NCBI GenBank assembly: GCA_003159495.1
Contig: PLPI01000048.1
Coordinates: forward strand, 1-40,000
Source: a candidate division FCPU426 bacterium
GTDB lineage: Bacteria > Oederibacteriota > PGYV01 > Palsa-1178
DNA length: 40,000 nucleotides
Reading direction: 5' to 3'
In this document: positions 2,315 to 32,054 of the stretch, in pieces
How the letters are laid out: each line of letters begins with the position of its first letter
Position numbering within the stretch: the first letter of the stretch is position 1
The notes under the pieces: generated by a model
Told to the model about the DNA's origin: nothing
Databases searched by the model: none
Seen by the model: the letters and a program-made list of their open reading frames with translations, nothing else
Program-made: the position numbers and the translations under genes

Positions 2315-2351
2315 AGATGAAGCTATAGAAATTTTCTGGAGGGTAGGTTTG

Positions 2352-3575
2352 ATGAGATTAAGGATTTTTGTGTTTATTTCCGCCATTATATTATTTTTGT
2401 CATCAACTGTAATGATTTTTGGGGATGGCTCTCCTACGGTAACACCAACAGTAACCGAAACATCAACCGAGGCAGATTCGCCGACGGTTACACCTTCATC
2501 AACGGAATCGGAATCACCTACAATAACACAAACATCAACCGAAGAAGATTCGGCGACAGTAACGCCTTCATCGACTGAGTCTGGTACTGAAACGGCAACA
2601 TTGACAGCCACTGCAACATCAACAGAAGCGGATACGGTGACAGCAACGCCGACATCAACCGAGGCTGATTCGCCAACGGTAACGCCGTCATCAACGGAGT
2701 CGGGAACTTTAACATTGACAGCCACGTCAACATCAACAGAAGCGGACACGGCGACAGCGACGTCAACATCCACGGAAGCTGATTCTCCGACAGTGACGCC
2801 GACATCGACCGAGGCTGATTCGCCTACAGCTACATTTACTGCCACAGATTCAATAACACCGACAATAACAGAGACATCATCGAATACAGGAACATATACC
2901 GCAACCATGACAATAACAGAAACAGATACGGTTACGCCTACCTTTACAGATTCACCGACTGTAACCGAAACATGGACGGAATCGGAGACGCCAACTATTA
3001 CAATGACTTCGACGGAATTACCTTCACCGAGCGTTTCTCCGACGATAACAGAGACCGCAACCGGATCCGCAACCCCGTCTGTGACGGAAACGGCCTCCGA
3101 ATCCGCGACCCAGACCATAACGCCTACTCAGACAGAGACGGGTACGGCAACTATTACCCCGACAATAACAGAAACGGCCTCCGGTACGGTAACCGGTACG
3201 GTTACTGCCACTATAACCGGAACTGAAACAGAGACGGCCAGCCCGACAGTTACCGCAACAATTACACCGACCATGACCGAAACTGTTTCTCCGACAACGG
3301 CGGCGGATACATTTACGCCGACAGCCGTGGATTCTTTTACGGAGACTGTTACGCCTTCATTTACACCCACTTTCACATTGACGTCCACGACAACTTTCAC
3401 GTTAACTTCCACGCCGACATTCACGCTGACGTTTACGCCGACTTTCACATATACGGTTACGTCAACGGGCACGGCGACGGTCACGCAGACAGCGACACCA
3501 ACATTTACGCCGCAGATAACATTTACATCTACGCAGACTGTAACGTTAACACCGACTGCGACGGCAACGGTTGAG
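2352..3575 (+). repeat. Degenerate in-frame repeat tract encoding TPT/STEAD units
   Basis: The DNA is built of degenerate ACN-rich units (for example variants of 'acatcaaccgaggctgattcgcc' recurring around 2460, 2530, 2655 and 2810). The repeats differ mostly at third codon positions, which indicates an old, protein-level repeat rather than a recent tandem duplication. The reverse strand is accidentally open through the same tract. Confidence 0.6.
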
Positions 3576-3866
3576 ACCTGGGAGTATTATCCAAATCCCG
3601 TGAATCCCGTAACCCAGGTGCTGAATATAGCTGTTGATTATTCCGGAGATATGGACGATGTAACCCTTTTAATATACACCACGGGCATGCGCAAGGTAAG
3701 GGTGATAGATTTTGGCGCCGTGGCCGCGGGTAATAAGATAATTACAACGCCGTCGGGAAGCCTGTCGGGATTGAGCCGGGGCGCGTACTATACCGTAATA
3801 ACAGGGACAAAACACAGCGGAGGCTCCGTGGTCTCCGGCATTAAAACCATACTGATATTTTACTGA
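2352..3866 (+). CDS. Secreted Thr/Pro/Ser/Glu ('TPT') repeat protein with C-terminal sorting/Ig-like domain
   Basis: A 504-residue protein. I place the start at ATG 2352, directly after a TTG that is also in frame. The N-terminus is a signal peptide (RLRIFVFISAIILFLSSTVMIFG). Residues ~28-400 are low-complexity Thr/Ser/Pro repeats. The first half carries acidic repeats of the form STEADSPTVTPSSTES, and the last ~100 residues of the repeat switch to aromatic FTPTFTLTST-type units without acids. The final ~100 residues form a folded domain that opens with 'YYPNPVNPVTQVLNIAV' and ends in '..SGIKTILIFY'. This resembles the FlgD-Ig/Por-type C-terminal domains found on exported proteins in Bacteroidetes-like and candidate-phylum genomes. 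A cell-surface or extracellular stalk, possibly glycosylated on Thr, is inferred. Confidence 0.75.
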   Translation: MRLRIFVFISAIILFLSSTVMIFGDGSPTVTPTVTETSTEADSPTVTPSSTESESPTITQTSTEEDSATVTPSSTESGTETATLTATATSTEADTVTATPTSTEADSPTVTPSSTESGTLTLTATSTSTEADTATATSTSTEADSPTVTPTSTEADSPTATFTATDSITPTITETSSNTGTYTATMTITETDTVTPTFTDSPTVTETWTESETPTITMTSTELPSPSVSPTITETATGSATPSVTETASESATQTITPTQTETGTATITPTITETASGTVTGTVTATITGTETETASPTVTATITPTMTETVSPTTAADTFTPTAVDSFTETVTPSFTPTFTLTSTTTFTLTSTPTFTLTFTPTFTYTVTSTGTATVTQTATPTFTPQITFTSTQTVTLTPTATATVETWEYYPNPVNPVTQVLNIAVDYSGDMDDVTLLIYTTGMRKVRVIDFGAVAAGNKIITTPSGSLSGLSRGAYYTVITGTKHSGGSVVSGIKTILIFY

Positions 3867-11825: not shown

Positions 11826-14222
11826 ATGGCAGATCCTGTAATTGCAGCACAAGCAGTAACACAGGTTGTCCAGGCCGCGGCACAGGTTGCCCAGAAGACG
11901 GCCGAGCACATCAGGCTTACACCGCTCACGTCTTTTGAGAACACCGCGCTTTGGGTAGTCTGGGGCACATCTTTACTTGCTCTGGTTTACGGATTTTACC
12001 TGATGTTCGAGATTCTCTCGAAATCAAGGGGAACGCAGAAGATGATCGATATTAATGCCGAAATCAAAAAGGGCGCGAAAGCGTACCTGGGGCGCCAGTT
12101 TTCCACGATCATCTGGTTTGTAATAGGGCTTATGATAGTCCTGTTTTTAACCTCGGTTGTGGATCCGGCTCTTGGTTATACTTCGGATCAGGTTATGAAG
12201 ATCAGGATAGGCAGGACGCTCGCGTTTTTCCTCGGAGCGCTTGCTTCGGCGGTAACAGGAACTGTTGGAATGCTCCTGGCCGTTGAGGGAAATGTCAGGG
12301 TGGCCGCGGGTGCGGTCGATAAAGGCAAAAGGGAAGCGCTTACAATAGCATTCAGGACGGGTTCAATCGCCGGAATGTTCACGATCGGACTCGGACTGCT
12401 CGGCGCAACATCAATATTTTTAATATTCCAGACTGAAGCTTCATCCATTTCCGATGTTCTTATCGGATTCGGATTCGGCGGATGCCTGCTCGCCCTTTTT
12501 ATGAGGGTTGGCGGCGGAATATTCACAAAAGCCGCGGATGTAGGAGCGGACCTTGTCGGAAAAGTTGAAAAGAACATACCCGAAGATGATCCACGCAATG
12601 CGGCGACGATAGCCGATAACGTCGGGGACAACGTCGGAGACTGCGCCGGAATGGCTGCGGACATTTTCGAGTCATATGAAGTAACGCTCGTCGCGGCCAT
12701 GATTCTTGGCGCGACGGTTTTTGGAAATATGGGAGTTATCTTCCCGCTTTTTGTCCGCGCAATCGGAGTTATCGCTTCAATCATCGGGACATACGCGGTA
12801 AGGTCGAACAGCGAAGAAGAACACGCAATGAAACCGATACAGAGGGGCTTTATGCTCGCGTCGGTACTTTCAGTTATCGGATTTGTAGCGGTAACAATGA
12901 TGTATCTGGTTCCGGCTTTAACGGAATGGATCTCACAGAAACCGGATCTTTTCCCCAACGCACCGGCAAACGGCGCGATGCTTCTCGGATGGAAACTATG
13001 CATCATTACCACAATAGGGATAATCCTTTCATTTGCCATTTCAAAGATAACCGAGCATTTCACCACGACAGAGGATAAACCCGTAAAAGAAATAGTAAAA
13101 TCAACACTCACCGGGCCGGCGACAGTAATTCTTACCGGAACGGCCGAGGGAATGGAATCGTCGGTATGGGCCGTTGTTTCAATTGCTATTGCCATGGCGA
13201 TTTCAATTCTGACATTCACCATTATGCCGGTCGGCACTGCGGCGGTAGTTACCGCACAGACACTTTATGGAATAGCGCTTATCGGACTTGGAATGCTCAC
13301 GGTAACGGGTATCATCGTTTCCGAGGACACATTCGGGCCGGTTTCTGACAACGCGCAGGGCATCGGCGAAATGGCGCAGCTTCCTGAAAAAGGAAGGGCG
13401 GCATTGGACGAGCTCGACGCGGTTGGAAATTCGACAAAGGCAATAACAAAGGGATTCGCAATAGCAACCGCCGTCATAGCGGCCGTATCGCTTTTCTCCT
13501 CATTTAACGAAGTAACAGGCGTTCCGTTCATCAACCTTTCAAGCCCGATAGTTTTCATCGGACTCCTGATCGGCGGCGGAGTGCCGTTCCTTTTCTCCTC
13601 ACTGCTCATCCGCGCAGTCAGCAGGGCGGCTTTCCTTGTTGTTAATGAGGTAAGAAGGCAGTTTAAGGAAATCAAAGGGCTCATGGACGGCACGGAAAAA
13701 CCCGAGTCGGCCAAAGTTGTTGATATCTGCACAAAAGCCGCGCTCAGGGAACTTGTCAGTCCGGCTCTTCTCGCGATTCTTATGCCTGTTGCAATGGGAT
13801 TCCTGTTCAAGGCCGAGGGCCTTGGCGGATACCTCGCGGGCGTTATTCTCGTGGGACAGCTTATGGCTGTTTACCTGTCCAACACCGGCGGAGCATGGGA
13901 TAATGCGAAGAAATCGGTTGAACAGATGGGGCTTAAAGGCTCCGACAGGCATAAAGCAGCGGTTATCGGCGACACGGTCGGCGACCCGTTCAAAGACACG
14001 GCAGGACCTGCGTTAAACCCGCTCATAAAGGTTATGAACCTTGTGGCGCTTTTAATCGCTCCTATTATAGTGCAGTACAAGGGCTATGACTGGGTGACAA
14101 TAACGGTTGTTGTTGTCTGCCTTGGCGTGATCGCAATCGGGCTTTCCTATTCAAAAAGGGACGATGAAACGGTCAAGAAGATAGCCGAGGAAGTAAGCGC
14201 AAAAGTTTCAAAAGCAAAGTAA
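11826..14222 (+). CDS. hppA: Membrane-bound proton-translocating pyrophosphatase
   Basis: A 798-residue polytopic protein with ~16 hydrophobic helices that couples hydrolysis of pyrophosphate to ion export across the inner membrane. The active-site segments are unmistakable: '[20 protein letters not shown]', '[23 protein letters not shown]', and near the end '[21 protein letters not shown]'. The segment around residue 538 reads [10 protein letters not shown]; Lys538 and Thr541 stand at the positions that mark K+-independent enzymes (K+-dependent ones have Ala and Gly/Ala), and K+-independent members are H+ pumps. AAGGAGGT precedes the ATG. An N-terminal extension rich in Ala/Gln/Val comes before TM1. 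The gene is monocistronic, with its own promoter and terminator. Confidence 0.96.
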
Positions 14223-21462: not shown

Positions 21463-22143
21463 TTGCAGCTTAAAATAAAGGATGTTATGGAATTGCTCGG
21501 CGTGCCCGAGCAGGCCGTCCTTAAATATATCAGGGAAAAAGGGCTTCCGGCCAGGAAAATAAGCCACCAGTATAATTTCAACAAAGAAGAGATAAAAGAA
21601 TGGGTCTTAAAGAACGGCATAGCCGTATCGGAAAAATTCCTCGATTTAAACCTTGTTAAAACCCCGGTTTCCATCCATAGTCTCGTAAAAAAAGGGGGTA
21701 TATTTACCGGTATAGATGGAACCACTCCGGGTGAGATACTTGCCCATGCGGTCGGGAAAATGAAGGTCCCTGACGGGCTCAAAAAGGATGAGATATTAAT
21801 TTCCCTTATAGAAAGGGAAGAGTTGATGCCCACGGCTGTCGGCCGCGGCATAGCCATTCCGCACCCCAGGAACCCCATAATATCGGACATTGAAAACGAA
21901 TCAGTCACAGTATGCACCCTGAAAAATCCGGCTGATTACGGAGCGGTGGATGGAAAAAAGGTTCACACTCTTTTTATCGTGATGAGCGCCAATTCGCGTC
22001 GCCACCTTGAAATACTTTCAAAGCTCCTTTTCTTATGCCAGCAGGAGCCGTTGGTATGGATGCTTGAAACTGGAAAGGGGCCGGAAGAAATACTCTCCTA
22101 CATAGGGGAGCAGGAGCAAAAATTGAAGGAAAACGGCCGTTGA
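21463..22143 (+). CDS. HTH (excisionase/MerR-like) - PTS EIIA (PtsN/fructose-type) two-domain protein
   Basis: A 226-residue protein starting at TTG 21463 (AAGAAGG upstream). Residues 1-52 form a compact helix-turn-helix of the excisionase/MerR type ('IKDVMELLGVPEQAVLKYI..KGLPARKIS..YNFNKEEIKEWV'). After a linker, residues ~75-220 are a PTS EIIA type-2 domain: 'EREELMPTAVGRGIAIPHPRN' contains His134 in the place of the phosphorylated active-site His of EIIA-Ntr/EIIA-Fru, and 'SRRHLEILSKLLFL' (His181) is also characteristic. No PTS permease or HPr lies nearby. Its gene overlaps the next by three bases, so it probably senses phosphotransfer state and regulates this operon or complex (inference). 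Confidence 0.85.
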   Translation: MQLKIKDVMELLGVPEQAVLKYIREKGLPARKISHQYNFNKEEIKEWVLKNGIAVSEKFLDLNLVKTPVSIHSLVKKGGIFTGIDGTTPGEILAHAVGKMKVPDGLKKDEILISLIEREELMPTAVGRGIAIPHPRNPIISDIENESVTVCTLKNPADYGAVDGKKVHTLFIVMSANSRRHLEILSKLLFLCQQEPLVWMLETGKGPEEILSYIGEQEQKLKENGR

Positions 22144-24101
22144 GCTTGTTCATTTACGGCATTGTCATAATAATTGCGGGCGGCCTTTTCAGCGCTTTTG
22201 CCGCGGAAAACCGCCGGGTGTACGCCGCGCTTGCCGCGGTCCTGGCTGGAGGCGTTATGTGCCTTATCCCGGCGGTGAATGTGCTTTTTTTTCACGGCAC
22301 AGCGGTATATGATCTTTTTGGAATAATATTTTCACTGGACCCACTTTCGGCATTTTTTTCCGCCATTATAGTTGTATTGTCATTTTTTTCCGTTCTTTAT
22401 TCCGTGCCTTACATGAAAGGATATTATTCAAAAGAACATGCCGTAACATCCCATTATATATTCCTGACAATCCTCATCGCCTCGATGCTCATGGTAACCG
22501 CGGCGCGCGACGCCGTGGCATTCATGATAAGCTGGGAAATCATGGCGCTTTCGTCTTTTTTTCTCGTGATATTTGAGAACGGGAAAAAAGAGGTTGTAGA
22601 TGCGGGAATTTATTACCTAATCATGTCGCATATAAGCGCCGTCCTGCTGATATGCGGTTTCGCTTTTGCTTTAAGCGGCGGGGCGGGACTTTCATTTGAA
22701 GCCATTGGTTCGGTGATGGCAAATAACCGCGGACAGGTTTTTCTTCCTTTTATCCTCTTCTTTTCCGGATTTGCGATAAAGGCCGGGCTTGTACCCGGCC
22801 ATACATGGCTGCCGAAGGCGCATCCAGCGGCACCCGCGCATATATCAGCCCTGATGTCCGCCATTATGATAGAAATGGGCATTTATGGAACGGCAAGAAT
22901 TATCATGATTTTTCCGCCGATGGGGGTGCCGGCAGGTTATGTCGTCCTTTTTTTCGGCATACTTACCGCGCTGACCGGAATTTTGTATTCCATTTCCCAG
23001 AGGGATATTAAAAAAGCGCTCGCGTATTCCAGTATTGAAAATGCGGGAATAATGGCGGCCGGGCTGGGGCTCGGAATGCTCGGGATATCATATAACCGGC
23101 CCTATATGGCCCTGCTAGGTTTTATAGGCGCTTTTTTGCAGGTTTTAAACCATTCTATTTTTAAGAGCCTTTTATTTTTCGGGTCCGGCACGATTTACAG
23201 GCGCACACATACCCTTGATGTGGAAAAATTGGGAGGCCTTTCAAAGAAAATGCCGGTGTTGTCTTTATGCTTTTTGCTGGGCTGTGCGGCTATATCCGGA
23301 CTGCCGCCGTTTAACGGATTTATAAGCGAATTTATCATTTTTTTGTCCATGATACAGGCCGCACAGACAAGGGTCATTGCCCTTGCCGCTGCGGGGATTA
23401 TTGGACTTGCCGGACTCGCGTTTACCGGCTCAATGGCGGTAATTTCATTTACACGGCTGTATTCGGGGATTTTTTCCGGGACGGCACGGTTGGATAACGC
23501 GAAAATAGAAAAAGGCGAAGGCGTTATCGAAACGCTTATTTTTATGATACTCGCGGCGGCCTCGCTTTTTATAGGTTTGTTCCCGCAGGCAGTCTATAAT
23601 ATTGTTTATGCTCCCGCGGCAGCCATGCTTGCATCCGCCGGAATGTCACCGTTGAACAACACGGCACTGGCCGGACAACTATCCGGATTATCCGGGCTGT
23701 TTTTAATATTATGCGGAGTTGTCCTGGCAATCATGGCATTCAGGTCTGTTCTGCTGAAAAACAGGGTTAAAAGCGGCAACACATGGGGGTGCGCGTATAA
23801 GGCGCCCACCTCGAGGATGCAATACACCACAAACTCATATGCGGCCCCTTTTACCGCCATCATGGAGCCTTTTGCCGGCAAAAAAGAGGTTGAAAATCCA
23901 CCAGTGGGTATCTTCCCGTCAGCGGCGGAATATAAGACGGGGTTTACGGATTTTTTTGAAAAATACCTGATAAACGCCGCGGGAAAAGCGGGACGCGGAC
24001 TGCTTAAGTTATTCACCTGGATACAGAACGGCAGCCTCCAGCGTTATATAATTTATACGATAATTTTTCTTGCGCTGTCAATTGTATGGGCGGTGAGATA
24101 A
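22140..24101 (+). CDS. HyfB/NuoL-like antiporter-type membrane subunit
   Basis: A 653-residue polytopic protein of the Mrp/NuoL/NuoM/HyfB family. It begins at TTG 22140, overlapping the previous stop (TTGA). Key proton-path residues are visible: Glu in 'AFMISWEIMALSSFFLVIFENG', Lys in 'SGFAIKAGLVPGHTWLPKAHPAAPAHISALMS', and the later 'FLQVLNHSIFKSLLFFGSG' and 'AAISGLPPFNGFISEFIIF' helices. The C-terminal region (~540-653) carries 'GCAYKAPTSRMQYTTNSYAAPF', typical of HyfB. In related complexes it pumps H+ or Na+ when electrons move through the peripheral arm. Next gene overlaps by one base (TAATG). Confidence 0.92.
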   Translation: MSLFIYGIVIIIAGGLFSAFAAENRRVYAALAAVLAGGVMCLIPAVNVLFFHGTAVYDLFGIIFSLDPLSAFFSAIIVVLSFFSVLYSVPYMKGYYSKEHAVTSHYIFLTILIASMLMVTAARDAVAFMISWEIMALSSFFLVIFENGKKEVVDAGIYYLIMSHISAVLLICGFAFALSGGAGLSFEAIGSVMANNRGQVFLPFILFFSGFAIKAGLVPGHTWLPKAHPAAPAHISALMSAIMIEMGIYGTARIIMIFPPMGVPAGYVVLFFGILTALTGILYSISQRDIKKALAYSSIENAGIMAAGLGLGMLGISYNRPYMALLGFIGAFLQVLNHSIFKSLLFFGSGTIYRRTHTLDVEKLGGLSKKMPVLSLCFLLGCAAISGLPPFNGFISEFIIFLSMIQAAQTRVIALAAAGIIGLAGLAFTGSMAVISFTRLYSGIFSGTARLDNAKIEKGEGVIETLIFMILAAASLFIGLFPQAVYNIVYAPAAAMLASAGMSPLNNTALAGQLSGLSGLFLILCGVVLAIMAFRSVLLKNRVKSGNTWGCAYKAPTSRMQYTTNSYAAPFTAIMEPFAGKKEVENPPVGIFPSAAEYKTGFTDFFEKYLINAAGKAGRGLLKLFTWIQNGSLQRYIIYTIIFLALSIVWAVR

Positions 24102-25021
24102 TGGGAGTCATCATTTACCTGCTTGTAATTATCCCGGCGCCGTTCATATTTGCGGGGCTTATTAACAGGGTCAAGGCGTTATGGGCGGGAAGGTACGGCC
24201 AGCCCGTGTTACAGCCGCTTTATGATTTCATGAAATATATGTCCAAGGGGCAGGTGATTTCCACAGCAACAAACCCGGTTTTTAAAGCCGCACAGGCAGT
24301 TTCGGCCGGAGCGGTTATCGTATCGTCCATGCTCATACCGCTTTGCGGCGCGTCTCCGGTTTTTACCGTTGATTACGGCTTCATTGTTTTTGCGTACCTG
24401 CTGGGGCTCTCAAAATTTATTTCGCTTATATCAGCAATGGATACGGGCTCAAGTTTTGAGGGAATGGGCGCCTCCAGGGAGGCTTCTTTTACCGCATTTA
24501 TTGAACCTTCATTTTTTGTCATAATAGCCACTGCCGCTGCGGTATCGGGAATGGACTCTTTTAACGGACTGGCCACATTTGCCGCATCAAACCTGCCGAC
24601 GGGCTGGGTTATAGCGTGGCTCGCGGCGGCGGCCATGCTGGTGATGATATTGACTGAGGGTTCACGGGTGCCTGTCGACGACCCGGCGACACACCTGGAG
24701 CTGACGATGATACATGAAGCCATGGTGCTGGACAACTCAGGCCCGGATATGGCGCTGATAAGCTACACCGTAAACCTTAAGATGGTGCTTTTAAGCGCCG
24801 TCATAGCGCTTATTTTTACACCAGCCGGGGTTTCAACGGGGGCGGCAGTTTTAATCCTTGCGGGGGTGCTTTTTTTGACGGCTGTGATTATCGGCTGTAT
24901 TGAATCTGTTATGGCAAGGCTGCGCATGACGCATGTGCCGCAGTTCGTATTTTTCATGTCGTCAATGGCGGTAATAATATTCTGTTCCGCCTTCATCTTT
25001 GTGCTGGCGGCGTCAAAATGA
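24101..25021 (+). CDS. HyfC/NuoH-like membrane subunit
   Basis: A 306-residue, ~8-helix protein. I choose ATG 24101 (sharing its A with the previous TAA, GGTGAG just upstream) over the in-frame ATG at 24086, which lacks a ribosome site. Family marks are 'GLINRVKALWAGRYGQPVLQPLYDFMKYM', the acidic loop 'AMDTGSSFEGMGASREASF', and 'TEGSRVPVDDPATHLELTMIHEAMVLD', matching HyfC/HycD/NuoH. This subunit joins the peripheral electron-transfer arm to the membrane antiporter arm. Its stop overlaps the next start by four bases (ATGA). Confidence 0.93.
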   Translation: MGVIIYLLVIIPAPFIFAGLINRVKALWAGRYGQPVLQPLYDFMKYMSKGQVISTATNPVFKAAQAVSAGAVIVSSMLIPLCGASPVFTVDYGFIVFAYLLGLSKFISLISAMDTGSSFEGMGASREASFTAFIEPSFFVIIATAAAVSGMDSFNGLATFAASNLPTGWVIAWLAAAAMLVMILTEGSRVPVDDPATHLELTMIHEAMVLDNSGPDMALISYTVNLKMVLLSAVIALIFTPAGVSTGAAVLILAGVLFLTAVIIGCIESVMARLRMTHVPQFVFFMSSMAVIIFCSAFIFVLAASK

Positions 25022-25659
25022 CCATATTTTTCGCGGCTATATTCAGCATGACAATGATATATGCCTGCTCGACAAGCAGGATAGAGGCCTATATAAGGGT
25101 GTTGTCCCTGCAGGGGATACTGCTTTTTCTCTGTGTCATTACAGGGCCAAAGGGACTTCCCGCGGTTACCTTTATTTTCCTCTGCGTGGAAACTTTTGGC
25201 TTTAAGGCCGTGCTGATACCGTGGTTTTTGATGTATACGGTGAGAAAAAACGGCGTGTTAAGGGAGGATGAACCCTACATACCCAATTTTTATTCAGTTG
25301 TCACGGCCACGCTCATATTTGCGGCTGTTTTTTTTGTTTCGTTTTTAATACTTAAAAGCGGAACAGCGCCGGGTTTTAAGGCCCTTTATTTCGGCGCCGC
25401 GCTCTCGGCCATTGCAACGGGGCTTTTCATTATTATAAGCAGGAAAAAGGTTATAACGCACGTCATGGGTTTTGTGATGATGGAAAACGGCATATTTCTC
25501 CTTTCGCTTTCTTTTGCGGGAGAGATGCCCTTTATAGTCAACCTTGGAGTTTTGCTTGACCTGTTTATCGCGGTCTTTTTGCTGGGGCTTTTTGTTTCAA
25601 GGATAAATTCGACCTTTGACGAGCTTGAGGTGGATATGCTTTCGGAATTAAAGGACTAA
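25018..25659 (+). CDS. HyfE-like membrane subunit (NuoK-like C-terminus)
   Basis: A 213-residue protein with about six hydrophobic segments. The N-terminal half ('IEAYIRVLSLQGILLFL', 'LCVETFGFKAVLIPWFL') and C-terminal half ('VMGFVMMENGIFLLSLSFAGEMPFIVNLGVLLDLFIAVFLLGLFVSRI') match HyfE. The latter carries the Glu of the NuoK-like proton channel. It overlaps the preceding gene by four bases and the next starts three bases after its stop. Part of the ion-translocating arm. Confidence 0.9.
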   Translation: MTIFFAAIFSMTMIYACSTSRIEAYIRVLSLQGILLFLCVITGPKGLPAVTFIFLCVETFGFKAVLIPWFLMYTVRKNGVLREDEPYIPNFYSVVTATLIFAAVFFVSFLILKSGTAPGFKALYFGAALSAIATGLFIIISRKKVITHVMGFVMMENGIFLLSLSFAGEMPFIVNLGVLLDLFIAVFLLGLFVSRINSTFDELEVDMLSELKD

Positions 25660-25662
25660 TAG

Positions 25663-27045
25663 ATGATAATAATAATGTTCCTTATTTCAGGCTTTTTTTT
25701 CGCGGCACTTGCGCTTGTTTTAAGGTCAAAAACGGCAAATGCGCTCATACCCGTTATTTATGCCGTATGCCATATCGCGATGACGGTGTATCTTGCGGTA
25801 AAACCGGAGAACGTTTCCGGTTATTTCGGCATCGACTCAACGAATACGGTTTTTTTGTTTATTCTTTCGGCTGTTTACCTAGGGGTTTCCGTTTATAATT
25901 TTGATTTTATAAAAAAATCGCAGGCGCCTGCGCTTAAAACCACTTATTATACTGTTGCGCTTCTTGCCTTTACAGCGGCCATGACGGCGGTTTTACTCTC
26001 CTTTAACCTGGGGCTTATGTGGGTTTTCATCGAAGCGACGACGCTTGCAAGCGCATACCTGATATATTATCACGGGGATAAGAATGCCCTCGAGGCGGCG
26101 TGGAAATATATTTTTATATGTTCTATAGGCATATCTTTCGCCTTCATCGGCATCATATTTTTATGTGTTTCAATGCCCGGGGTTGAAAAACAGCTCTCTT
26201 TTGACGCTGTATACAGGGCCGCCCCGGCCATGGACCATGCGTGGCTGAAAACCGCCTTTGTCCTTATGACAATCGGCTTCGGGACAAAGGCCGGGCTTGC
26301 GCCGGTCCATTCATGGCTGCCGGACGCCCATTCGGAAGCGCCTACTCCGGCCTCCGCGCTGTTATCCGCCACACTGCTCAATACGGCCATGGTTGCCATA
26401 ATAAGGATACTGAAAATAATGGACCTTGCGGGGCTTGAAAAGGACGCGGGTTTCTACCTTATTCTCATGGGACTGCTCTCGGTTTTTGTCGCGGCGGTTT
26501 ATATAATAAGGGTCGGGAGCTATAAAAGGATGCTCGCATATTCATCCGTGGAAAACATGGGAATAATAGCCGTTGGCTTGAGCCTGGGCGGCGCGGCAAT
26601 GCCTGCGGTATTCATCCAGGCGGCGGGCCATTCGCTCTCAAAGGCGGCATTCTTTCTTACCTCCGGAAATATCTTAAAACGTTACGACACCAAAGAAATA
26701 TCGGCTGTCAGGGGCCTTTTAAAAAGCGACCGTGTAACAGGCTGGCTCTGGATAGCCTCTTTTGTAATGATTTCGGCAATACCGCCGTCGCCTCTTTTTA
26801 TAAGCGAGTTTAAAATATTAAGGATTATGTTCAGCCGGGGCATGTGGCCGCAGGCCCTGCTTATGCTGCTTCTTTTGACCGCGGTCATTTACGGCATGGC
26901 AACAGCCGTCTTAAGTATGTGTTCCGGCGATGCTCCTGAAGGCGCGGAAAAATTACAGTTAAATCCTGCGCGTTATGTTGCACAGGTCACCTTCATAACC
27001 ATTCTGGCGCTGGCGGGATTTATGCTAGCCGCCGCAACGATATAA
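25663..27045 (+). CDS. HyfF/NuoM-N-like antiporter-type membrane subunit
   Basis: A 460-residue, ~14-helix protein. Antiporter signatures are 'LGLMWVFIEATTLASAYLIYY' (Glu of TM5), 'TIGFGTKAGLAPVHSWLPDAHSEAPTPASALLS' (Lys of TM7), 'MLAYSSVENMGIIAVGLSLGG' and 'IQAAGHSLSKAAFFLTSGN'. Length and the 'HSEAPTPASALLSATLLN' wording point to HyfF rather than a second HyfB. With HyfB-like it gives two pumping modules. A HyfD homologue is absent, so the arm is shorter than that of E. coli hydrogenase 4. Confidence 0.92.
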   Translation: MIIIMFLISGFFFAALALVLRSKTANALIPVIYAVCHIAMTVYLAVKPENVSGYFGIDSTNTVFLFILSAVYLGVSVYNFDFIKKSQAPALKTTYYTVALLAFTAAMTAVLLSFNLGLMWVFIEATTLASAYLIYYHGDKNALEAAWKYIFICSIGISFAFIGIIFLCVSMPGVEKQLSFDAVYRAAPAMDHAWLKTAFVLMTIGFGTKAGLAPVHSWLPDAHSEAPTPASALLSATLLNTAMVAIIRILKIMDLAGLEKDAGFYLILMGLLSVFVAAVYIIRVGSYKRMLAYSSVENMGIIAVGLSLGGAAMPAVFIQAAGHSLSKAAFFLTSGNILKRYDTKEISAVRGLLKSDRVTGWLWIASFVMISAIPPSPLFISEFKILRIMFSRGMWPQALLMLLLLTAVIYGMATAVLSMCSGDAPEGAEKLQLNPARYVAQVTFITILALAGFMLAAATI

Positions 27046-27055
27046 GGCGTTAAAA

Positions 27056-28540
27056 ATGGAAAACTTCAAACTTACAAAAAACAACAGGCCGGCAGAGTTA
27101 AAGGGGCTCCCTGAACTTTCTATCGGCGAGTTAAGCAGGGCTGTTGTCACGGAATGTGCGGCCGGAAAAAGAGTGCTGGGATTTTTCGGCATGAACGAAG
27201 CGGCGGATAAGATGCGCCTCTTTGCCGCGCTTGCCGATGACGAATCGTCGTCTATTCTTTTATCGTCCGCATGTTTTGACAATGTGAAAAATTATCCGTC
27301 CCTGACGCCGGATGCTCCGATGTTCCATATGTTCGAGAGGGAATTTTATGAGCAGACGGGCATAAGGCCCGATGCGCATCCCTGGTTAAAACCGGTGCGT
27401 TATCCGTCGGTAAGCGGCGGAAAAATGGAGGATTATCCCTTTTTTACCCCCACCGGGCGGGAAATGCACGAGGTTGCGGTAGGGCCGGTCCACGCGGGCA
27501 TAATTGAGCCGGGCCATTTCAGGTTCCAGTGCGCAGGAGAGAATGTTAAGCACCTTGAAATACAGCTGGGTTACCAGCACAGGGGGGTTGAGGCGCTCTT
27601 TGACGGATGCGGCGGCCGCGATATGATACACCTCGCCGAGTCTGTCTGCGGCGACACGGTAGTGGGCCATGCCACAGCATACGCTTCTCTTCTTGAATCA
27701 CTTTCGGGTACGCAGGTCACAAGAAAAGCGTATGTCATCAGGGCCATAGCGCTTGAGCTTGAACGCGTTGCCATGCACACGGCAGGGCTCGGAGCGATAG
27801 CCGGCGACATTGCATATCTCATGGGCAATGCCGTATTCGGGGCCAACAGGACAAAAATTATAAATACATCACTTCTTATCTGCGGGTCAAGGTCGGGGCG
27901 CGGACTTGTCCGTACCGGCGGGGTTGTTTATGACATTGACGCGCTAAAGGCAAAACAGATAAGGCAAAACGTGAACGAGGCTTACGACAGGATACGCGAG
28001 ATGGCAGAGGAGATGTTCTCGTCGCCAAGCGTGCTCTCCAGGCTCCAGCAGACCGGCGTGGTTTCAAAACGCGACGCTGTAAAGACGGGAATGACCGGGT
28101 TTGCCGCAAGGGCTTCCGGTGTTGCTGTGGACTCGCGCGAGGACCATCCGTCAGGCGCTTATATCCATTTTCCGGTGCGCAAAGAGGTGCTCGAAAGCGG
28201 GGATTGCTTTGCAAGGGCATACCTCAGATATATGGAAATAAACCAGTCGATAAAACTTGTAAATGAAATGTGTGATAATATCCCGTCCGGAGAAATATTG
28301 GCGGAAAAAAGTATCATGGCGCCTGATTCCATCTGCGTGTCGATTGTTGAAGGCTGGCGCGGCGGAATTGTTTATACCGGCATCACGGATAAAAACGGCT
28401 CGCTGAAAAAAATAAAGATAAAGGACCCGTCATTTAACAACTGGTACGGACTTGCGCTTGCCATGCGAAATAACGGGATATCCGATTTTCCGGTTTGCAA
28501 CAAGAGTTTTGACCTTTCATACTGCGGAAACGATTTGTAA
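27056..28540 (+). CDS. HyfG/NuoCD-like large subunit lacking the NiFe-binding motifs
   Basis: A 494-residue protein. Residues 1-~115 resemble a NuoC-type domain and 130-494 a NuoD/[NiFe] large-subunit domain ('VGPVHAGIIEPGHFRF', 'LEIQLGYQHRGVEALF', 'ALELERVAMHTAGLGAIAGDIAYLMGN'). True group-4 hydrogenases have CGIC at the first site and DPCxxC at the C-terminus. Here the first site reads ESVC198GDT201VVGH, losing the second Cys, and the second reads FD486LSYC490GND-end, losing Pro and the paired Cys. There is no cleavable C-terminal extension after the last Cys and no maturation protease nearby. It therefore cannot bind NiFe in the known way and fits the energy-converting hydrogenase-related (Ehr) class. 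It most likely passes electrons to another acceptor or donor. Confidence 0.9.
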   Translation: MENFKLTKNNRPAELKGLPELSIGELSRAVVTECAAGKRVLGFFGMNEAADKMRLFAALADDESSSILLSSACFDNVKNYPSLTPDAPMFHMFEREFYEQTGIRPDAHPWLKPVRYPSVSGGKMEDYPFFTPTGREMHEVAVGPVHAGIIEPGHFRFQCAGENVKHLEIQLGYQHRGVEALFDGCGGRDMIHLAESVCGDTVVGHATAYASLLESLSGTQVTRKAYVIRAIALELERVAMHTAGLGAIAGDIAYLMGNAVFGANRTKIINTSLLICGSRSGRGLVRTGGVVYDIDALKAKQIRQNVNEAYDRIREMAEEMFSSPSVLSRLQQTGVVSKRDAVKTGMTGFAARASGVAVDSREDHPSGAYIHFPVRKEVLESGDCFARAYLRYMEINQSIKLVNEMCDNIPSGEILAEKSIMAPDSICVSIVEGWRGGIVYTGITDKNGSLKKIKIKDPSFNNWYGLALAMRNNGISDFPVCNKSFDLSYCGNDL

Positions 28541-28557: not shown

Positions 28558-29313
28558 ATGTTCGAAATGCTGAATATCAGGATACGCCAGGGTTCGCAAT
28601 ACATACCCGACGTAAAAAAAGCGGTTTTAAACCAAATGCACAGGGGTTTCCCCGTATTGAATGCGGATAAGGTGGATTCCTCGTTCACGGCGGATTCCGT
28701 GTGCCCGTCGGGGGCCATAACAAGGGAGCCTTTTGCCATTGATATGGGAAAATGCGTATTCTGCGGGGACTGCGCAGGGGCGTGCAAAAATAACGAGATA
28801 AAATTCACCAGTTTCCATAAACTGGGCGCAGACTCGCGCGAGAAGCTGGTTATAAAATACGGGGATACTCCCGGAGAGTATGAAAAAAACGCTGTTGTAT
28901 GCAGGAAGGAAATAAAAAGGATATTCGGAAGGTCGTTGAAATTCCGGCAGGTATCGGCCGGGGGATGCAACGGATGTGAAATGGAGCTTAATGCGTGCAC
29001 CAACGTTAATTTTGACATGGCTAGGTTCGGCATAGACTTTACGGCATCGCCGCGCCACGCGGACGGCCTGGTAATAACGGGCCCGATAACAAAGAATATG
29101 GCCTTTGCCGTGGAGGAAACATACAACGCAATAGCGGAGCCAAAAATAATAATAGCATGCGGCGCCTGCGCTGTTTCTGGCGGGATATTTGCCGGGTCAA
29201 ATGCGGTTGACAGGGAATTCTTTGCGGCCCACGGGGTAGACCTTTATGTGCCGGGCTGCCCGCCCCATCCGCTTACGTTCATTAACGGAATTTTAAAACT
29301 TATCGGTAGGTAA
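28558..29313 (+). CDS. Fused ferredoxin - small subunit (HyfH-HyfI/NuoI-NuoB-like)
   Basis: A 251-residue fusion. The N-terminal ferredoxin part keeps C49-P plus C66, C69 and C72 (from CVFCGDCAGAC), exactly the ligands of one [4Fe-4S] cluster of a two-cluster ferredoxin. The CxxCxxC set for the other cluster is gone, leaving C76 as an orphan. The C-terminal part is a NuoB/HyfI-type small subunit with the proximal cluster ligands C137 and C140 ('GGCNGCEMELNA'), C204 ('CGACAVSGG') and C234 ('VPGCPPHPLTFINGIL'). Usually HyfH and HyfI are separate. Electrons would run between the single ferredoxin cluster and the proximal cluster next to the large subunit encoded upstream. AAAGGAG precedes the ATG. 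Confidence 0.9.
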   Translation: MFEMLNIRIRQGSQYIPDVKKAVLNQMHRGFPVLNADKVDSSFTADSVCPSGAITREPFAIDMGKCVFCGDCAGACKNNEIKFTSFHKLGADSREKLVIKYGDTPGEYEKNAVVCRKEIKRIFGRSLKFRQVSAGGCNGCEMELNACTNVNFDMARFGIDFTASPRHADGLVITGPITKNMAFAVEETYNAIAEPKIIIACGACAVSGGIFAGSNAVDREFFAAHGVDLYVPGCPPHPLTFINGILKLIGR

Positions 29314-29357: not shown

Positions 29358-30098
29358 TTGAAAAAAATAATATTTACACTCTTTGCGGTTATGGTAAGCT
29401 TCGCGGCTTTTGCCGAGCAGTTTGAGCACCCCATGATGGACCTCGATGTTCCGTCAGGCATGGAAAAGGGGCAGATGTATGTCGAACTCGGGGAAAAATC
29501 TTACGCGCCGTTAAATAATTACCCGCCGGATGATTTTTTTGCCGTTATTGACAACGGAGCAAATGTAAAACTGGGCGTAAGGTACATGGCCACAGATAAC
29601 ATTTCCGCCGGCGTATCGTATATTTCTGAAAAAATGGAAAAAACAGCGGAGCTGTCATATACATTTAATTTTGAAAAGAATGGATTCAACGCGAAAATCG
29701 AGGCCGCTTATATCAATGACAGGGAAGCCCCCGGCGAACCCCTGAAATCAAAGCCGTTCGGCCTTGTATCGTTCCAGACCGTGCCGTTCATGAATAAAAT
29801 GTTCGTGGTGACCGTTGATTACGGCTCTGAAAGCGGCCATTCCGGCCTGGGAACGGGAATATTATACAACATCTCCGAACACAACTGCCTGCTGGCGGAA
29901 TATTACCCGGTTATAAACCAATACAAAAGCAACACAACCAGCTGTTATTCCTTCGGCTACAAACACGATACATACGGCCATCAGTTTATTTTCAGGGTGG
30001 GGAATTCAAGCCAGATAGGGGCGAGGGATTTGATGCAGGGAACAAACAGCGGCAACCTCTACGCAGGAGTTGATGTTATGAGGCTGTTTGCGTTTTAG
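29358..30098 (+). CDS. Exported beta-barrel-like protein of unknown function
   Basis: A 246-residue precursor starting at TTG 29358 (AAGGATGGTGA upstream) with a signal peptide (KKIIFTLFAVMVSFAAFAEQ). The mature chain alternates polar and hydrophobic residues in strand-like blocks ('NVKLGVRYMATDNISAGVSYI', 'TAELSYTFNFEKNGFNAKIEAAY', 'LYAGVDVMRLFAF') and ends in Phe, as outer-membrane barrels often do. The region 'EHPMMDLDVPSGMEKGQMYVELGEKSY' recalls DUF5777-type barrels, but I am not certain. It begins 44 bases after the hydrogenase-like operon's last gene and could be read through from it. Confidence 0.65.
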   Translation: MKKIIFTLFAVMVSFAAFAEQFEHPMMDLDVPSGMEKGQMYVELGEKSYAPLNNYPPDDFFAVIDNGANVKLGVRYMATDNISAGVSYISEKMEKTAELSYTFNFEKNGFNAKIEAAYINDREAPGEPLKSKPFGLVSFQTVPFMNKMFVVTVDYGSESGHSGLGTGILYNISEHNCLLAEYYPVINQYKSNTTSCYSFGYKHDTYGHQFIFRVGNSSQIGARDLMQGTNSGNLYAGVDVMRLFAF

Positions 30099-30391: not shown

Positions 30392-31195
30392 ATGAAAAAT
30401 AATGTTACAACCAGAGGATATCTAACACAGAGGGAACGACAGGTGATTGGCAGGCTCTCATATGAAAAAACAGCGGCAATAACACGAAAACAGTTTGATT
30501 CATATTTTAATAATTACCCAAAAACAGTAAGGGAAAAATTGATTTACAGGCTGAACAGACAGGGTATTTTGAAAAAAATCAAAAAAGGGGTTTATATTTA
30601 TTCCCCGTTAGAGGCGGGTCCCGCCGGAAGAAATATTAATGAATACATGGTGCCCGGGCTCCTGCTGCCCGGCAGGGATTATTACATAGGTTATTCAACA
30701 ATGTTTAATTACTATAAGTTTACCGACCAGTTATTCCGTGTAATTTATGTTTTAAATACGGGGATTCAGCGCGACAGGGATGTCGGCGGAATGAGATTTA
30801 AACTGCTTAAGGTATCAAAAAAGAGAATGTACGGTATAACTGAAATTGATATAATGGGTGTAAAATCCAGGGTAAGCGACCTTGAGAGAACACTCGTGGA
30901 TCTTATATATTTTTCAAACCCTGTTGGAGGCCTGAAGCGTGCCTATGAAATCATGGTTGATATGGTAAAGCGCGGCAGGGCGGACCGGGAAAAATTCCTT
31001 GAATATCTGGCGCTGTTCCCGAATGCTTATGTAAGGAAACGCGCCGGATATATTCTGGACTCAGCCGGAATAAAAACAGGCAGATTGGTTGAGGCCATAA
31101 ATCCAATGTCGATTATGACCCTTTATAATGGAAAAAGCAGAAAAGGCAGAATTGACAAAAAGTGGGGGATTATCATAAATGATTCACGAGAATAG
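30392..31195 (+). CDS. AbiEi-family antitoxin / transcriptional regulator
   Basis: A 267-residue protein, the usual AbiEi size. It has an N-terminal winged HTH ('TRGYLTQRERQVIGRLSYEKTAAITRKQFDSYF', 'LIYRLNRQGILKKIKKGVYIYSPLE') and an AbiEi-like C-terminal domain ('PGRDYYIGYSTMFNYYKFTDQ', 'VSDLERTLVDLIYF', 'LEYLALFPNAYVRKRAGYILD'). In type IV AbiE systems this protein represses its own promoter and neutralises the partner toxin. AAGGTGG precedes the ATG, and the gene overlaps the toxin gene by 17 bases, the expected order (antitoxin first). Confidence 0.85.
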   Translation: MKNNVTTRGYLTQRERQVIGRLSYEKTAAITRKQFDSYFNNYPKTVREKLIYRLNRQGILKKIKKGVYIYSPLEAGPAGRNINEYMVPGLLLPGRDYYIGYSTMFNYYKFTDQLFRVIYVLNTGIQRDRDVGGMRFKLLKVSKKRMYGITEIDIMGVKSRVSDLERTLVDLIYFSNPVGGLKRAYEIMVDMVKRGRADREKFLEYLALFPNAYVRKRAGYILDSAGIKTGRLVEAINPMSIMTLYNGKSRKGRIDKKWGIIINDSRE

Positions 31196-32054
31196 GGAAG
31201 AGTTTAGGGGGATTCTGGAAAGAGCTTCGGCTGCAACCGGATTTCCAGCGGGCCTTCTTGAAAAGGATTATTATTTAACAATTATGCTTAATGGTATAAA
31301 TAAAGAATTGGACGAGAAACTCGTTTTTAAAGGCGGAACCTGCCTTAATAAGCTGTATTTTGACTATTTCAGGCTGAGCGAGGACCTTGATTTTACGCTG
31401 TTGTTGCCGGATGGGAAAGTAAATAAAACTATAAGAAGCAGATGTATGGACGGGATTAAAAAGGGTATAAAGAAATATTTGCAAAAATACGGCCTTATTC
31501 TTGATGAGTCTGAAAGGCCGGGCAGGAATGAAAGCAGGCAGTACGTTTATTACGTGAATTATGATTCTATAATTACGGGAACAACGAACCATGTGAAGCT
31601 TGAAATAGGATTGCGCGCAAATCCGTTTATGAAGGTCCGGGAAATGAAAGTTAAGCATGTTTTTAAAAATCCATTTTCCGGCGTTGAGTTGTTTGATGCG
31701 GGAACTGTAAAATGCCTTTCACTGATTGAAATTGCCGCGGAGAAATTCAGGGCCGCCGCTACCCGGAAAAAAATAGCGCCAAGAGATTTTTTTGACCTTG
31801 ATTATCTGATTAAAAAGGGGGTTGATTTCAAATCAAAGGACTTACAGGAGCTTGTTTCGAAAAAAATGGCCGAAGATGGGTTCGCTGCACCCGTGGGAAA
31901 ATATTATGTAAATTTATTCAGGACTGCGGAGGAAATCAGGGATATGGAATTGCGGCTTGAGGATGAACTGTATCCGGTGCTGGCAAAATCGTCGATAGGG
32001 GATTTCAGACTGGATAGGGTCATCAAGTATTTTAATGCAATAAGAGTAAGGTGA
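31179..32054 (+). CDS. AbiEii-family nucleotidyltransferase toxin
   Basis: A 291-residue protein of the AbiEii/MenAbi-type nucleotidyltransferases. Diagnostic motifs are the N-terminal 'GLLEKDYYLTIML', the nucleotidyltransferase core 'KLVFKGGTCLNKLYFDYFRLSEDLDFTLLL' (GG..L and the catalytic DLD), 'VKLEIGLR', and 'LIEIAAEKFRAAATRKKIAPRDFFDLDYL' with the conserved K...R....R..D..D block. AbiEii toxins are bacteriostatic and several AbiE systems act in phage defence by abortive infection (family knowledge). The whole pair appears intact. Confidence 0.88.
   Translation: MIHENREEFRGILERASAATGFPAGLLEKDYYLTIMLNGINKELDEKLVFKGGTCLNKLYFDYFRLSEDLDFTLLLPDGKVNKTIRSRCMDGIKKGIKKYLQKYGLILDESERPGRNESRQYVYYVNYDSIITGTTNHVKLEIGLRANPFMKVREMKVKHVFKNPFSGVELFDAGTVKCLSLIEIAAEKFRAAATRKKIAPRDFFDLDYLIKKGVDFKSKDLQELVSKKMAEDGFAAPVGKYYVNLFRTAEEIRDMELRLEDELYPVLAKSSIGDFRLDRVIKYFNAIRVR

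Follow-up and report, generated by a model that had tools for sequence, protein, structure and literature searches.

The window examined here, a stretch of 40,000 nucleotides from a candidate division FCPU426 bacterium, carries an operon of hydrogenase-4 type whose large subunit has lost the motifs that normally hold nickel and iron. This raises the question of whether the encoded complex can still handle hydrogen and, if not, what reaction may now be coupled to its membrane arm.

The vacated [NiFe] site

The HyfG/EhrL-like large subunit (27056..28540, + strand, 494 aa) consists of an N-terminal 30-kDa-type domain followed by a 49-kDa/hydrogenase domain and is without any conserved [NiFe] ligand. 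The open reading frame, its coordinates and the residue numbers given in a first-pass annotation (C198-G-D-T, D486-L-S-Y-C) are correct. Among proteins of solved structure, E. coli HycE is the best match (E 1e-46); it also provides the closest solved fold (7z0s_E) to an AlphaFold model of HyfG with a mean pLDDT of 88. Both ligand motifs of group 4 hydrogenases, the L1 CxxC and the L2 DPCxxC, are absent. At the former L1 site (27638..27661, + strand) codons 195-202 read E-S-V-C-G-D-T-V, the HycE counterpart being D-R-V-C-G-I-C-G, and at the former L2 site (28499..28537, + strand) codons 482-494 read NKSFDLSYCGNDL and end the protein, the counterpart in HycE being IGSLDPCYSCTDR plus a tail. In the alignment on E. 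coli HycE, the ligand cysteines C241, C244, C531 and C534 fall on C198, T201, S488 and G491, respectively; the earlier claim that both CxxC pairs are gone thus holds, with T201, S488 and G491 in place of three ligand cysteines.

The encoded C-terminus, L494, aligns with R537, the final residue of mature HycE, so the gene stop coincides with the hydrogenase cleavage point and there is, as first proposed, no cleavable tail. The HycE large-subunit domain is described as spanning residues 182-537 (PMC9474812). Residues 491-494 of HyfG hardly vary in the family, although the single-chain model gives them low pLDDT, which suggests that they may form an interface with other subunits.

A genome scan yielded at least 570 relatives of HyfG, 80 of which were retained for alignment. 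C198 is a cysteine in 44/80 of these and otherwise A, T, V, N or S; C490 is a cysteine in 64/80 and aligns with HycE S533, one position off the ligand. Since the former is variable and the latter out of register, the leftover cysteines are no evidence of a metal site, and rescue of the site by them was rejected. The observation that two cysteines remain without either pair can accordingly be refined: neither is a conserved ligand in the family. The expectation that automatic annotation would return hydrogenase 4 proved right for the membrane genes and wrong for the large subunit, whose best score is with NuoD; plasmid homologues that have an annotation go under “NADH-quinone oxidoreductase subunit C” or under “nickel-dependent hydrogenase large subunit”.

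Family searches of this genome, a draft at 97.8% completeness, returned no match to HypA, HypD, HycI or PF00374. All gene absences reported here rest on drafts, those reached through loci being of unstated completeness. The absence of these maturases joins the HycE alignment and the grouping of cysteine-less sequences into one clade (see below) in making [NiFe] binding as improbable as the first-pass annotation had supposed. The complex is almost certainly incapable of handling hydrogen, its nickel-iron site permanently lost. HypD is absent from 41/58 carriers of the complex and present in 17/58, which may own other hydrogenases. Four matches to [FeFe] hydrogenase were found in this genome, and the family is present in 44/58 carriers; hydrogen metabolism in this organism would therefore run on these separate enzymes.

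A single loss and a fixed replacement

The retained relatives come from Melainabacteria/Gastranaerophilales, Spirochaetota, Lentisphaerota, Ignavibacteriota, Bacteroidota, Acidobacteriota, Calditrichota and other groups. E195, G199, N482, K483, L487, S488, G491, D493 and L494 are shared by 80/80 sequences and D200 by 79/80, and position 201 is T or S throughout (80/80), giving the common motif LAESxxGD[ST]...NKSFxLSYxGxDL-COOH. Fixation of these replacement motifs across many phyla, together with the hyfBCEFG-hyfHI gene order fixed in the relatives, argues against a decaying copy, and gene decay was rejected. In the window's phylum, true group-4 hydrogenases occur beside this family with CGIC and DPCxxC intact; a C-terminal extension is present in most of them, and two are without a tail. 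Among the proteins examined, Asp200, Lys483 and the C-terminal NKSFxLSYxGxDL are confined to the cysteine-less ones and missing from every hydrogenase and NuoD, and because of this confinement they can be used as a signature.

In a tree of 52 sequences and 325 columns, from which the motif columns (the L1 region and all positions beyond residue 477) were removed and in which archaeal MBS was not included, all 36 cysteine-less sequences form one clade (100/100). Its nearest cysteine-bearing relatives are E. coli Hyc/Hyf (99/97), and NuoD stands apart. This placement, for which the first-pass annotation had called, rejects a NuoD paralogue and points to a single ancient event in which the [NiFe] site disappeared, distinct from the loss in NuoD. 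The clade splits in two, with support of 100/99 for the main part, to which the window belongs, and of 99/94 for its sister; one sequence, L118_4699, has a very long branch and an unsure placement.

The proton path of HycE has been traced through E193, H284, R395, E437, R478 and D529 (PMC9474812), which align with E151, H241, R352, E394, R435 and D486 of HyfG. These residues are strongly conserved in the family except for D486, the canopy aspartate, which is Asn in 72/80 relatives. The quinone residues of complex I are absent from HyfG in the same kind of alignment, the NuoD His and Tyr corresponding to I150 and G199. Judged by residue conservation, the pocket looks like a hydrogenase site without metal in which the proton supply has been retained.

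Membrane arm, Fe-S wire and leader gene

The order hyfB-hyfC-hyfE-hyfF-hyfG-hyfHI is found in nearly all sufficiently long loci. In the window, an antiporter-type HyfB/EhrA-like subunit (22140..24101, + strand, 653 aa; PF00361, E 5e-57) has hydrogenase 4 subunit B as its best NCBIfam model, below cut-off, and its E133, K214, E300, H338, K342 and E397 are 95-100% conserved and identical in E. coli HyfB. It is followed by a HyfC/NuoH-like membrane anchor (24086..25021, + strand, 311 aa; PF00146, E 2e-26), in which E140, E191, E211 and E273 show 100% conservation and are the same residues as in HyfC and HycD, and by a HyfE-like subunit (25018..25659, + strand, 213 aa), which matches the NCBIfam model “hydrogenase 4 membrane subunit” (E 1e-20) and, slightly below cut-off, Oxidored_q2, with E156 and D181 100% conserved. 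A second antiporter-type subunit, HyfF-like (25663..27045, + strand, 460 aa; PF00361, E 3e-50), has hydrogenase 4 subunit F as its best NCBIfam model, again below cut-off; its E124, K148, K209, E297, H323 and K327 are conserved at 100%, and E. coli HyfF has the same residues. Overall, charged residues of HyfB, HyfC, HyfE and HyfF are 90-100% conserved, E. coli Hyf having the same residue at most of these positions, and on the strength of this homology ion translocation by the membrane arm is likely.

The EhrS-like small subunit (28558..29313, + strand, 251 aa) is a HyfH-HyfI fusion joining a ferredoxin-like domain to the proximal cluster. Alignment with HycF and HyfH assigns C49, C66, C69 and C72 to one predicted [4Fe-4S] cluster, the first CxxCxxC of HycF being lost, and alignment with HycG assigns C137, C140, C204 and C234 to the proximal cluster. 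The ferredoxin-domain cysteines are present in 76/76 sequences and the proximal ones in 75/76 each. Both ferredoxin motifs are retained in a main-clade relative encoded by a Variovorax plasmid as well as in the sister copy of a Lentisphaerae genome (L028), and sister-type proteins of Rhizobium, Cupriavidus and genomes G007-G010 have the proximal cluster and no ferredoxin domain. Such differing degrees of wire shortening are evidence against one common soluble donor.

The operon is led by a gene for an EIIA-HTH protein (21463..22143, + strand; Pfam HTH_17, E 7e-10, and type-2 PTS_EIIA_2, E 2e-23), which in the window overlaps the hyfB start by 4 bases. Its His134 is identical in 19/19 sequences. 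The gene lies directly upstream of hyfB in 17 related operons (5/5 in Spirochaetota, 4/6 in Bacteroidota, 4/6 in Lentisphaerota and single cases elsewhere); Calditrichota, Ignavibacteriota and Acidobacteriota are represented too, and the Melainabacteria operons are all without it (0/27). A literature search found no mention of a link between such a gene and this operon, of which it is a likely candidate regulator. In the neighbourhoods of related loci, no other gene beyond the operon is common to different phyla. The idea of a hidden partner gene nearby was discarded, as clustered flanking proteins showed merely local synteny among Melainabacteria. The first-pass annotation had left the electron partner unnamed, in keeping with the finding that only the likely regulator accompanies the operon across phyla.

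Several further genes of the window may be mentioned. A DUF5777 membrane beta-barrel gene (29358-30098) lies on the same strand 45 bases after the operon and is not found beside its relatives, and an AbiEi/AbiEii-type toxin-antitoxin pair (30392-32054; PADLOC E 2e-43 and 1e-39) is located just downstream of the operon. At 11826-14222 a large membrane protein resembles an H+/Na+-translocating pyrophosphatase, another putative ion pump, and at 2349-3866 a Thr/Pro/Ser-rich low-complexity protein combines many near-repeats with a C-terminal domain.

Related complexes and candidate function

A six-subunit membrane-bound “NiFe hydrogenase” without the required hydrogen-binding motifs was described in Melainabacteria in 2013 (PMC3787301), and in 2019 an Ehr clade was defined from Melainabacteria, Riflemargulisbacteria, Lentisphaerae and Spirochaetes (PMC6349859); Ehr complexes have also been named in Geobacter (GSU0739-45; PMC7894505), comammox Nitrospira (PMC10284858) and CPR (PMC7304191). 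The window shows the Ehr-type gene set, in which L and S join membrane subunits of antiporter-like, NuoH-like and HyfE-like kind, the Geobacter composition having been published (PMC7894505). Of the groups with a named Ehr, the comparison covered Melainabacteria, Lentisphaerae and Spirochaetes, whose sequences, of the kind named Ehr (PMC6349859), group with the window. Assignment to a hydrogenase-4-derived “energy-converting hydrogenase-related” (Ehr) complex, an already known class, is supported, and the Ehr-type identity first suggested agrees with both the published Melainabacteria complex (PMC3787301) and the Ehr clade (PMC6349859). New here are the single loss, the Asp200/Lys483 signature, the residue mapping, the retained proton residues and the wire shortening, as well as the EIIA link, the finding that formate dehydrogenase is not a general partner and the relatives on plasmids of bacteria in culture.

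With Ehr the complex shares a group-4-like large subunit without [NiFe] ligands, NuoL-like and HyfE-like membrane subunits, L and S (PMC7894505, PMC6349859, PMC3787301), and overlapping host taxa; going by published descriptions, it may differ in its ferredoxin-like domain, fused to the small subunit with one predicted cluster, its EIIA-HTH leader and the lack of a formate dehydrogenase in the genome. E. coli Hyc/Hyf offers the nearest fold, the nearest cysteine-bearing clade and the same membrane subunits, proximal cluster and proton path, but here HyfA/HycB, HyfD and formate dehydrogenase are missing, HyfH and HyfI are fused with one cluster lost, and HyfG has lost its four NiFe ligand positions along with the cleavable tail. 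Like NuoD/NuoCD of complex I, HyfG has no NiFe ligands and ends at the same position, yet it belongs to a separate clade, lacks the quinone His/Tyr and retains E151, and the proximal motif of the small subunit is a hydrogenase-type CxxC instead of the tandem Cys of NuoB. MBS of P. furiosus is likewise a group-4 relative with an altered NiFe pocket and an Mrp-type membrane arm, but keeps two of four ligand cysteines and has a three-Cys proximal cluster, whereas here no ligand Cys is conserved and the CxxC is of hydrogenase length.

Redox-driven ion translocation by Ehr has been put forward as a proposal (PMC6349859, PMC7894505), and we found no paper showing what Ehr complexes do, nor turnover for any member. 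From the invariant Fe-S ligands and the charged residues of the membrane arm we infer, with the first-pass annotation, an electron-driven ion pump; the complex probably pumps ions while electrons pass to an acceptor. A low-potential soluble donor, most likely reduced ferredoxin from pyruvate:ferredoxin oxidoreductase, would deliver electrons to the single [4Fe-4S] cluster of the ferredoxin-like domain, from which they would pass to the proximal cluster and on to an acceptor bound in the vacated pocket at Asp200/Thr201/Lys483/Ser488. A non-proton acceptor is proposed in view of a metal-less pocket with a proton supply, which would be provided via Glu151, Arg435, His241, Glu394 and Arg352, and the reaction would drive export of H+ or Na+ through HyfB and HyfF. 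Reduced ferredoxin is the simplest donor, although the oxidoreductase family PF01855 is common in general: its presence in 58/58 carriers is weak support given 10/14 control genomes. Against such a pump it counts that turnover requires an acceptor and none was found, that no electron-donor gene is linked to the operon in the neighbourhoods of related loci and that the canopy Asp is mostly replaced by Asn; the sister subclade of Cupriavidus, Rhizobium and G007-G010, without a ferredoxin domain, is odd for a ferredoxin-driven machine. As a whole, a ferredoxin-fed Ehr pump reducing a non-proton acceptor and exporting H+ or Na+ stands, in our judgement, slightly above an even chance of being right.

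The hydrogenase-derived arm might instead serve as a redox sensor on an Mrp-like antiporter, with EIIA-HTH as a phosphotransferase link, making the complex a gated ion transporter. Such a role would accord with the lack of any universal specific donor or acceptor among those sought, with a wire whose shortening varies within the clade (from two ferredoxin-type clusters to one or none), with fully retained antiporter residues and with the place of the EIIA-HTH gene at the head of the operon in several phyla. In E. coli, K+ transport is regulated by EIIA proteins of the PtsN type. If this were true, sister forms with a single Fe-S cluster would represent the end point of the shift. We nevertheless regard it as unlikely, as the proton-delivery residues of the redox site are retained, the main clade keeps two clusters in series that a mere sensor would not need, Melainabacteria operons have no EIIA gene, and the HTH domain fits plain transcriptional control. 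Rather unlikely, too, is electron transfer from the proximal cluster to quinone through an independently re-invented site. Complex I is a precedent for quinone reduction by a cysteine-less large subunit, and quinones are plausible in this organism given its separate complex I (nuo genes) and three UbiA-family proteins, but HyfG has I150 and G199 in place of the headgroup-binding His and Tyr, the small subunit has CxxC and not the NuoB tandem Cys, and Melainabacteria carrying the complex are reported to be without quinones and respiratory chains (PMC3787301). UbiA is found in 53/58 carriers; its absence from 5/58, these being MAGs, is not decisive.

Binding of sulfane sulfur or polysulfide in the cavity follows the archaeal MBS, a group-4 relative that reduces its substrate directly at the proximal cluster (PMC7684303). 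MBS relies, however, on a shortened small-subunit motif and a three-Cys proximal cluster and is reported to lack the MBH glutamate (PMC7684303), which HyfG retains as E151; considering also the two ligand cysteines that MBS retains and HyfG does not, this chemistry seems highly improbable here. Most improbable is formate as the electron source through a formate dehydrogenase-Ehr system, as proposed for Riflemargulisbacteria and Saganbacteria, in whose genomes fdhA lies near nuoE/F-like genes (PMC6349859), and consistent with the greater abundance of Geobacter Ehr subunits on formate (PMC7894505). PF00384, the molybdopterin oxidoreductase family which covers FdhA, was found in 19/58 carriers and is absent from 39/58, so formate dehydrogenase is not a general partner of the clade, and no such gene adjoins the operon. 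The family is missing from this genome (97.8% complete) as well as from G039 (100%), G041 (99%) and G040 (96%); hence this genome lacks NuoG as well as any formate dehydrogenase of that family, and the formate partner was rejected here, unless the gene lies in the missing 2%. On contig C74 of this genome (L085, 2612-12353), nuoABCDHIJKLMN without nuoEFG is followed by a polyprenyl-synthase-like gene, and the NuoD encoded there retains the quinone His/Tyr.

The [NiFe] site was lost here separately from complex I, a second instance in nature of a hydrogenase remodelled, probably, into a different ion pump. As Ehr is widespread and this clade extends to gut Melainabacteria, Spirochaetes, Lentisphaerae, Ignavibacteria and plasmids of soil bacteria, an answer would cover many organisms. 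Plasmid relatives in cultured Variovorax, Cupriavidus and Rhizobium make function testable, and Asp200, Lys483 and Glu151 are offered for mutation. Plasmid 3 of Variovorax sp. PBL-E5 (L133, 4905-21428) carries a main-type operon with a sister-type operon 3 kb on; the Lentisphaerae genome GWF2_38_69 (L028) likewise has one operon of each part, and in G044 (L111) two main-clade operons stand in tandem. Replicons of Allomeiothermus silvanus, Rhizobium and Cupriavidus metallidurans CH34 (L134-L138) carry cysteine-less relatives ending NKSFxxSYxGxDL, the annotated ones among them being named NADH-quinone oxidoreductase subunit C. At L126 (G043:C228) HyfG is split into two ORFs of 185 and 318 aa, reflecting either an assembly frameshift or a broken copy.
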